DNA of 32,204 nucleotides from Bacillota bacterium (GTDB lineage Bacteria > Bacillota > SHA-98 > Ch115): positions 1 through 32,204 of the forward strand of contig DUSO01000171.1 of assembly GCA_012842565.1 (NCBI GenBank), written 5' to 3'. Positions 18,210 through 19,775 of the stretch are shown here, in pieces. A model generated the notes under the pieces. The model was not told the DNA's origin. It did no database searches and saw nothing but the letters and a program-made list of their open reading frames with translations. The position numbers and the translations under genes are program-made. Numbering within the stretch: position 1 is the stretch's first letter; each line of letters opens with the position of its first letter.

Positions 18210-18286
18210 GAGGTATGCGGGCGCCCGGCCCTTCTATCCTGAGCGCCCGGTTCTTCAAGGAGAAGCGGCCTGAGGGGGATGACCTG

Positions 18287-19015
18287 GTGGTGCGAGGTAG
18301 ATTCATCGTCTTTGAAGGAATTGACGGGTCAGGGGTTACGACTCAGGCCCACAGGCTAAAGGAATACGTCGGCAAGAAACTCGGGTTGCCTGTGCACCTT
18401 ACCAAGGAACCTACTGACGGCCCGGTCGGAGGGCTAATAAGGACGATACTGGCCAAGCGGGTGGGGGTGCCGACACGTGATGGCCGCCTCGAGAGTGTAG
18501 ACCCGCGGTGCCTTGCGTTGCTGTTCGCGGCCGACAGGATTGATCACCTCGAGGTCGACATCCTCCCAAAGCTCCAAAACGGGGTAACGATAATATGTGA
18601 CAGGTATTACCTCTCCTCTTTTGCCTATCAATCCCTTTCGGTAGATCTGAAGTGGATACGAGAGATCAATTCTAAATGTATTCATCCCGATCTCACCATC
18701 ATGCTCAGGGTACCCCCGCTGGTAGCTGAAAAACGCCGTCTCCAGGATCGGTGGCACGTGGAACTCTATGAGGAGACGCCGAAGCTGGAACATGTGAGTG
18801 CAAATTATCTGAGTATAATCAAGGAATTGCAGAGGGAGGGGCACCGGGTAGAGATCATAGACGGCAACAGGCCCCCCAATGAAGTTCATAAGGACGTGGT
18901 GCGGCTGGTGAGGTCGCTATTCACAACTACCGGAAACAAAAAAGCCCGGGCCAGGGGGTCTCCGCAGCTGGGAATAGACTTTGCCAGCGAAGGGGGCGGG
19001 TCCGCTGACGCGTGA
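18287..19015 (+). CDS. Thymidylate kinase-like protein with altered P-loop
   Basis: This 242-aa protein has the dTMP kinase layout: an N-terminal P-loop strand FIVFEGIDGSG, EPTDGPVGGLIRTIL (closer to archaeal-type enzymes than to Bacillus Tmk), CDRYYLSSFAYQS, and a lid region around KRRLQDRWHVELYEE. The P-loop reads GIDGSGVTTQ: the lysine that normally contacts the ATP phosphates is valine (codon GTT). It is either an enzyme using another residue or a kinase-like protein with another role. I chose GTG 18287 because GAGGGGG lies 8 nt upstream and because the promoter would start transcription at about 18216; ATG 18215 gives 266 aa. The next gene overlaps its end by 35 nt. Confidence 0.8.
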   Translation: MVRGRFIVFEGIDGSGVTTQAHRLKEYVGKKLGLPVHLTKEPTDGPVGGLIRTILAKRVGVPTRDGRLESVDPRCLALLFAADRIDHLEVDILPKLQNGVTIICDRYYLSSFAYQSLSVDLKWIREINSKCIHPDLTIMLRVPPLVAEKRRLQDRWHVELYEETPKLEHVSANYLSIIKELQREGHRVEIIDGNRPPNEVHKDVVRLVRSLFTTTGNKKARARGSPQLGIDFASEGGGSADA

Positions 19016-19775
19016 CGCCTATTCTCCTCCTAAGAGACGTATAAGAAATATCATATTCGACCTAGACGGGACGCTGGTGGATTCCCATAGTGGTATCATC
19101 GAGGCGTTGAATTATGCCCTGGTAAGGACGGGATACAGGCCTTTTGACGAGGCCGAAGCGAATCAACGCATGGGATTCTCGCTGGAAGATACCCTCCGGG
19201 ATAAGATCGCCGAGAAGGATATGCACCGGGTATGTACTCTCTATAGGGAATATTATCATAAGATATCTCCGCTCAGGACCAGGGTGTTCCCCGGAGTTGT
19301 GGATACTCTCAGACGCCTTGATAGGATGGGTATCCGGTGCGCAATTGCGTCGAATAAACCAAGGTATTCTGCGATACACCTTCTCGAGGCATTGGGGCTT
19401 CATCAATACTTTCCGGTCGTGGTAGGCGGGGAATGTGTCCCGCTGCCAAAACCCGACCCGGGCATGATCCTGCTGGCCATGTCGAGGCTGGGTGCCAGCC
19501 CGGAGAATACAATATATGTGGGAGATTCCGAGGTAGATGCGATAGCCGGCCGTTCGGCAGGACTGGAGGTAATAGTGGTACTGAATGGAATCAGGTCCCT
19601 TTGGCACAATACGGACTCGGGCAATGGTGTGAGGATGCTCCGGCATGTGTCCGATATTGTAGGACTGGTGGATGCAGAGGAGGACCCGGGGGCATGCGGA
19701 GCCGCGGCTGCCACCTTCCAGCTGTCCCGTTCCAGCAGCCGTCAGGATCAGAAGCAGGCAGGTCGTGAGGAATAG
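18981..19775 (+). CDS. HAD-superfamily phosphatase (Gph/PpaX-like)
   Basis: This is a 264-aa HAD hydrolase. Motif I is IFDLDGTLVDS, motif II is in CAIASNKP, motif III is the lysine of PKPDPGM, and motif IV is YVGDSEVDAIAG. A helical cap (about 40-100) places it near phosphoglycolate phosphatase and pyrophosphatase PpaX; the substrate cannot be read from sequence. The start is TTG 18981, with GGGA about 7 nt upstream. A CTG at 19005 preceded by GGGGGCGGG is an alternative. A low-complexity tail (ATFQLSRSSSRQDQKQ) ends the protein. It overlaps the upstream kinase-like gene and abuts the next gene, so the three are likely cotranscribed. Confidence 0.86.
   Translation: MPAKGAGPLTRDAYSPPKRRIRNIIFDLDGTLVDSHSGIIEALNYALVRTGYRPFDEAEANQRMGFSLEDTLRDKIAEKDMHRVCTLYREYYHKISPLRTRVFPGVVDTLRRLDRMGIRCAIASNKPRYSAIHLLEALGLHQYFPVVVGGECVPLPKPDPGMILLAMSRLGASPENTIYVGDSEVDAIAGRSAGLEVIVVLNGIRSLWHNTDSGNGVRMLRHVSDIVGLVDAEEDPGACGAAAATFQLSRSSSRQDQKQAGREE

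Follow-up and report, generated by a model that had tools for sequence, protein, structure and literature searches.

The lysine of the Walker-A motif is regarded as the hallmark of P-loop kinases, in which it contacts the phosphates of ATP. Relocation of a catalytic lysine to another strand is established for the WNK protein kinases, some members of which carry a cysteine at the vacated place. For mycobacterial CoaE, one study ascribes to the P-loop lysine a part in ATP binding, and reports that a Lys14Ala mutant lost 19% of its kcat, with other kinetic parameters also affected; its authors put forward Arg140, close to the lid, as the compensating residue (PMC3019153). The P-loop lysine is therefore not always essential. 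In type II thymidylate kinases (Tmk), the catalytic arginine is located in the LID (PMC3169407). PDB entry 5X8J is titled as a K16M mutant of the Thermus Tmk; no paper with "K16M" was found in the literature searched.

The window, a stretch of 32,204 nucleotides from a Bacillota bacterium (contig DUSO01000171.1 of assembly GCA_012842565.1), encodes a protein resembling the type II Tmks (TIGR00041/PF02223; Aquifex 4S2E/4S35, S. aureus 2CCJ); it scored 149.3 bits against TIGR00041 (curated cut-off 83.25) and 133.4 bits against PF02223 (E 9.7e-39, cut-off 27 bits), with a fold match over residues 2-215. The DR(Y/F) motif and the LID arginine R150 are both kept, as is a glycine after the P-loop aspartate, which PMC3169407 assigns to type II enzymes. 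In contrast to these enzymes, the seventh position of the Walker-A motif GxxxxGK[ST] is valine (Val17), residue 40 is lysine rather than arginine, and the canonical TREPGGT is replaced by TKEPTDGP; the arginine of the LID motif DR[ILM]E, present in 31 of 31 canonical rows, is missing, position 160 being leucine, and the protein carries a tail and an insertion of about 11 residues, the latter nearly limited to the window's class among the aligned rows. The original prediction, that a GTT valine codon stands at the lysine position while DRY and EPTDGP are retained, was borne out when codon 17 and residues 105-107 and 41-46 were read. The C-terminal tail (18926-19012) is weakly conserved. The window protein and two relatives with threonine at position 17 had PHROG 761, thymidylate kinase, as their top-ranking PHROG.

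The gene lies within the forward-strand ORF 18215-19015, whose translation includes ...VVRGRFIVFEGIDGSGVTTQ... and contains FEGIDGSGVTTQ. The GTG at 18287, from which residues are counted here, is the likely start, because relatives begin two residues upstream of the same (K/R)-G-(K/R)-(F/L), and a GTG stands at the same place in a locus of the same family (L041). The interval first stated, 18287-18400, covers the 5' part of the gene alone, which runs to 19015 (Table 1). Of 15 loci compared, 10 have atpC upstream of tmk, and 14 have proS downstream of it on the opposite strand. An overlapping HAD phosphatase gene had been taken as a hint of nucleotide control; a homologue was found near tmk in only 1 of 22 class loci searched (14 genomes, some counted twice), that of L041, and the HAD gene was rejected as a conserved partner of tmk.

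Table 1. Positions of tmk, its motifs and the overlapping ORF in the window
Feature	Position	Strand	Basis
tmk, thymidylate kinase (Tmk) without P-loop lysine, 242 aa	18287..19015	+	ORF, profile scores, start by comparison with relatives
P-loop GIDGSGVTT, residues 11-19	18317..18343	+	sequence and alignments
Val17 codon GTT, Walker-A lysine position	18335..18337	+	sequence, alignment, codon comparison
Lys40 codon AAG of TKEP, candidate substitute lysine; aligns with Arg36 of S. aureus Tmk	18404..18406	+	alignments, covariation
EPTDGP motif, residues 41-46, where the canonical motif is EPGGT	18407..18424	+	alignments
Insertion after helix 2, about residues 60-70, about 11 residues	18464..18496	+	alignments
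DRY motif, residues 105-107, end of strand 3 in model	18599..18607	+	sequence, AlphaFold model
LID segment, residues 150-162, with R150, R151, R155, E162	18734..18772	+	alignment
HAD hydrolase ORF, mechanical TTG start, overlaps tmk 3' end	18981..19775	+	ORF, profile, class-locus search

The departure from lysine is a feature of the clade, as one of the proposed checks had asked: across 17 genomes of the class, residue 17 is valine in 10 and cysteine in 5, that is, one or the other in all 15 with a readable gene. The remaining two (G012 and G016, 91 and 81% complete) gave weak matches only. One of the five cysteine-bearing genomes, G011, has a run of unknown bases after GAGCT. When a profile of the class was run over 398 genomes of the window's own phylum and the best 30 loci were read, relatives were found in other classes. 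The members of this wider subfamily have in common EP[TS]xGP, FAADRxDH and a LID with arginines; some retain the lysine (GSGKTT, GSGKST or GSGKGT), and in further lineages the alignment with homologues places isoleucine, leucine, threonine or serine at position 17. As judged from these alignments, the EP[TS]xGP subfamily, with members in Bacillota and on viral contigs, has lost the P-loop lysine repeatedly, to V, C, I, L, T and S. The sequences were collected with profiles built from the window's clade, that is, from lysine-less forms, and are therefore a biased sample; GTTTQ forms may also be carried by other phyla. A DNA pattern for lysine-less P-loops gave 30 matches in the 398 genomes, the Tmk-like ones all being subfamily members, so that no lysine-less Tmk outside the subfamily was found by this pattern; the result is a lower bound, because AGY serine, CTN and TGY codons escape the pattern.

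All 22 viral loci matching the lysine-less P-loop pattern were Tmk-like, with threonine at position 17 in 20 and serine in 2. The TMP kinase of Halogranum tailed virus 1 (AGM11404.1; L239, KC292026.1) has GAGTTT, without the P-loop lysine, and serine at residue 40; its gene adjoins a dUTPase gene. The scan of viral contigs found no Tmk with cysteine at position 17. For aliphatic residues it returned six stretches, in which a Tmk was recognizable by motif only in an already known phage contig (I17, K40); three of the six had no Tmk motif in frame. Plasmid searches yielded Tmks of less than 60% identity only, the one read, from Monoglobus, having K17 and A40, and a viral library of predicted structures added nothing new beyond dTMP kinases at 15-30% identity.

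The original prediction offered compensation by another residue, and as far as sequence goes this is supported, with Lys40 as a specific covarying candidate. In an alignment of 131 Tmk-like rows, in which residue 40 directly precedes the EP motif, lysine occupies position 40 in 46 of the 46 rows with V, C, I or L at position 17, and in none of the 51 rows with Lys17 (0/37 canonical, 0/14 subfamily). In the canonical rows residue 40 is arginine in 34 of 37, so that K40 adds no charge relative to canonical enzymes. Thr/Ser17 rows have K40 in 2 of 34, and neither lysine in the other 32, and a lysine may therefore be dispensable altogether. A tree of 113 rows (18 canonical rows omitted) implies at least 10 changes in the class of residue 17. 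It contains six independent pairs that differ in aliphatic 17, and in every one K40 differs as well and in a consistent direction (p = 0.031, the lowest value attainable with six pairs); K40 was the sole state to do so at 6/6 pairs among 1160 column/state tests. No state tied to Thr/Ser17 always went in the same direction (pair scan, best 16 rows), and the alignment and pair scan revealed no basic residue besides K40 that is common to lysine-less forms and absent from lysine-bearing relatives.

Trees built without columns 17 and 40 retained the direction of the association, with fewer strictly supported pairs. Quick trees gave two such pairs, whether viral rows were included or left out, and six on all branches; a careful tree, from which 27 viral rows and 11 near-copies were removed to leave 75 rows, gave four (p = 0.125), and again six on all branches. 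The pairs never pointed in the opposite direction, and none of these trees is significant alone. A further class search (30 loci, of which 2 had already been seen and 5 were unparsed) added six aliphatic-17 sequences, all with K40, from six families, five of them new, and 17 parsed Lys17 sequences, all with Arg40. Five annotated records combine K17 with Q, K, A or R at position 40, or T17 with Ser40. A canonical-type phage Tmk (L236, MT835680.1) carries both Lys17 and Lys40, and the two lysines are therefore not mutually exclusive; K40 was present in 1 of 72 Lys17 sequences read overall. The swap between positions 17 and 40 seems reversible, since one genus (g150 of family f95) has K17 and R40 and is nested among Ile/Leu17-K40 genera. 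Six further loci (L077, L078, L079, L213-L215) encode a Tmk with GSGKGTQ and Arg40, as if the lysine had been regained; a glycine after the P-loop lysine is as in adenylate kinases.

An AlphaFold model of the window Tmk, made from 34 rows including viral relatives, reached a pLDDT of 92.3 (an input of nine near relatives alone gave 45.7, and that model was discarded). Its top matches are solved Tmks, several of them substrate-bound; the best was human Tmk 1e2g (Z 27.7, 192 residues, rmsd 1.3), and Aquifex Tmk 4s35 matched with Z 27.6. In the model, strand 2 ends at residue 40 and helix 1 starts at residue 17. Counting along the alignment, residues 40 and 17 correspond to Arg36 and Lys15 of S. 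aureus Tmk, and in a docking study of the latter enzyme both are tabulated as contacts of docked compounds, at one site (PMC8304590). On this basis, it is plausible that Lys40 could reach the transferred phosphate.

We reasoned that an essential dTMP kinase with a Tmk fold very probably works here without the Walker-A lysine: in this branch Lys40, where strand 2 ends, would neutralise the ATP beta and gamma phosphates and the transferred phosphoryl group, with help from R106 of the DRY motif and from R150 and R155 of the LID. An active enzyme whose phosphate-binding lysine has shifted out of the P-loop to this position is a reading to which we give about even weight, and the specific role of Lys40 as functional replacement is, on the covariation, just as finely balanced. 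Somewhat more tentatively, the family may represent a natural P-loop kinase lineage with the Walker-A lysine moved, in which an aliphatic residue or Cys replaces K17 where Lys40 is present, the swap was made and at least once reversed in bacterial dTMP kinases, and the Thr/Ser17 forms of bacteria and of bacterial and archaeal viruses use neither lysine. The arrangement would resemble that of the WNK kinases, in that the missing catalytic lysine is apparently replaced by one on another strand and a cysteine stands at the vacated place in some members; unlike in WNK, the fold is unrelated and the replacement is deduced from covariation. As in the CoaE Lys14Ala mutant, which retains most of its kcat (PMC3019153), a P-loop kinase would be working without the lysine, although CoaE is a case of a laboratory mutant and the Tmk one of a natural lineage.

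The main rival to relocation onto Lys40 is that the LID and DRY arginines (R150, R151/R155 and R106), together with backbone amides, suffice in all lysine-less forms, K40 tuning only packing or the binding of the dTMP phosphate. The LID arginines are kept in the window Tmk, R150 and R106 are invariant in 44 lysine-less rows, the Thr/Ser17 forms mostly do with neither lysine, and the 19% loss of kcat in CoaE, with Arg140 as proposed compensator, points the same way (PMC3019153). However, the lysine-bearing members of the subfamily carry the same LID and DRY arginines, and the strict tracking of aliphatic 17 by K40 is therefore left unexplained; we regard this explanation as possible, but would not expect it to prevail.

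A second alternative is that a monovalent cation or an ordered water replaces the lysine ammonium group, above all in the Thr/Ser17 forms. The uniform presence of threonine or serine at position 17 in the 22 viral loci is in its favour, and potassium stimulates some P-loop NTPases (PMC9599734); such a replacement does not, however, predict K40 alongside aliphatic residues, and we consider it improbable.

The original prediction also raised a role other than dTMP phosphorylation, and suggested a search for a second, canonical tmk. That search found none: PF02223 matched once in the window genome (97.8% complete). In the class, 15 of 17 genomes have one TIGR00041 match above the cut-off, and no genome has two; weak second matches occurred in some, the strongest, in G005, being rejected as a different P-loop protein with GTGKST (46 bits against TIGR00041, below the cut-off, and 45.8 against PF02223, above it). 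ThyX was found in 17 of 17 class genomes, and a T4-type dNMP kinase (DNMK) in 0 of 17. Given the sole Tmk match, the presence of ThyX and the lack of matches to DNMK, the window protein very probably serves as the dTMP kinase of the cell, and is in all likelihood catalytically active as such.

Outside the class, 44 lysine-less genomes were found, of which 26, each at least 90% complete, were searched with PF02223, and three more were searched separately. A single match was obtained in 24 of the 26, including four genomes that are single contigs (G369, G162, G399 and G430); G477 and G479 had a weak second match. G216 likewise had a weak second match. G217 and G310 had two further matches each, one of which was read in each genome (L165, L166) and is a lysine-bearing Tmk-like protein with SSWNSS replacing the EP motif, a second PF02223 match lying about 0.7 kb away; an archaeal protein (L010) resembles this type. 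In two other loci, L055 (G044) and L056 (G018), the sole PF02223 match is a divergent GDGSGKATQ form, with alanine after the lysine.

In 11 pairwise comparisons of class tmk genes, dN was 0.006-0.155 and dS 0.10-1.85 (saturated in two), and codon 17 in 14 distinct genes is GTT, GTC or GTA for valine and TGT for cysteine; the class genes are under purifying selection, with silent variation within the valine codon. That the reaction was lost or changed, through another donor or substrate or as a pseudo-kinase, with an unrelated enzyme making dTDP, finds a precedent in Pseudomonas putida, where a T4-like dNMP kinase can take over from Tmk (PMC10653934). Against it stand the purifying selection, the absence of a second PF02223 match from 24 of the 26 lysine-less genomes elsewhere, and the lack of DNMK in the class, DNMK and PF02223 matches being the replacements sought; a changed reaction is thus very unlikely. 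Sequencing error or a decaying gene, for which no point in favour was found, is excluded by the varied Val/Cys codons in the 15 readable class genomes and by the low dN relative to dS, and its probability is practically negligible.

The literature searched, with subscription journals mostly outside it, yielded no account of thymidylate kinases that naturally lack the lysine, and the covariation of K40 with aliphatic/Cys17, as seen in the alignments, is a new observation. Entire lineages seem to carry out an essential reaction in the absence of the Walker-A lysine, and they offer natural replacements together with a covarying partner and what looks like a reversal. The natural variants at hand make the role of the P-loop lysine testable, and motif rules that score lysine-less P-loops as inactive can be wrong and call for caution.
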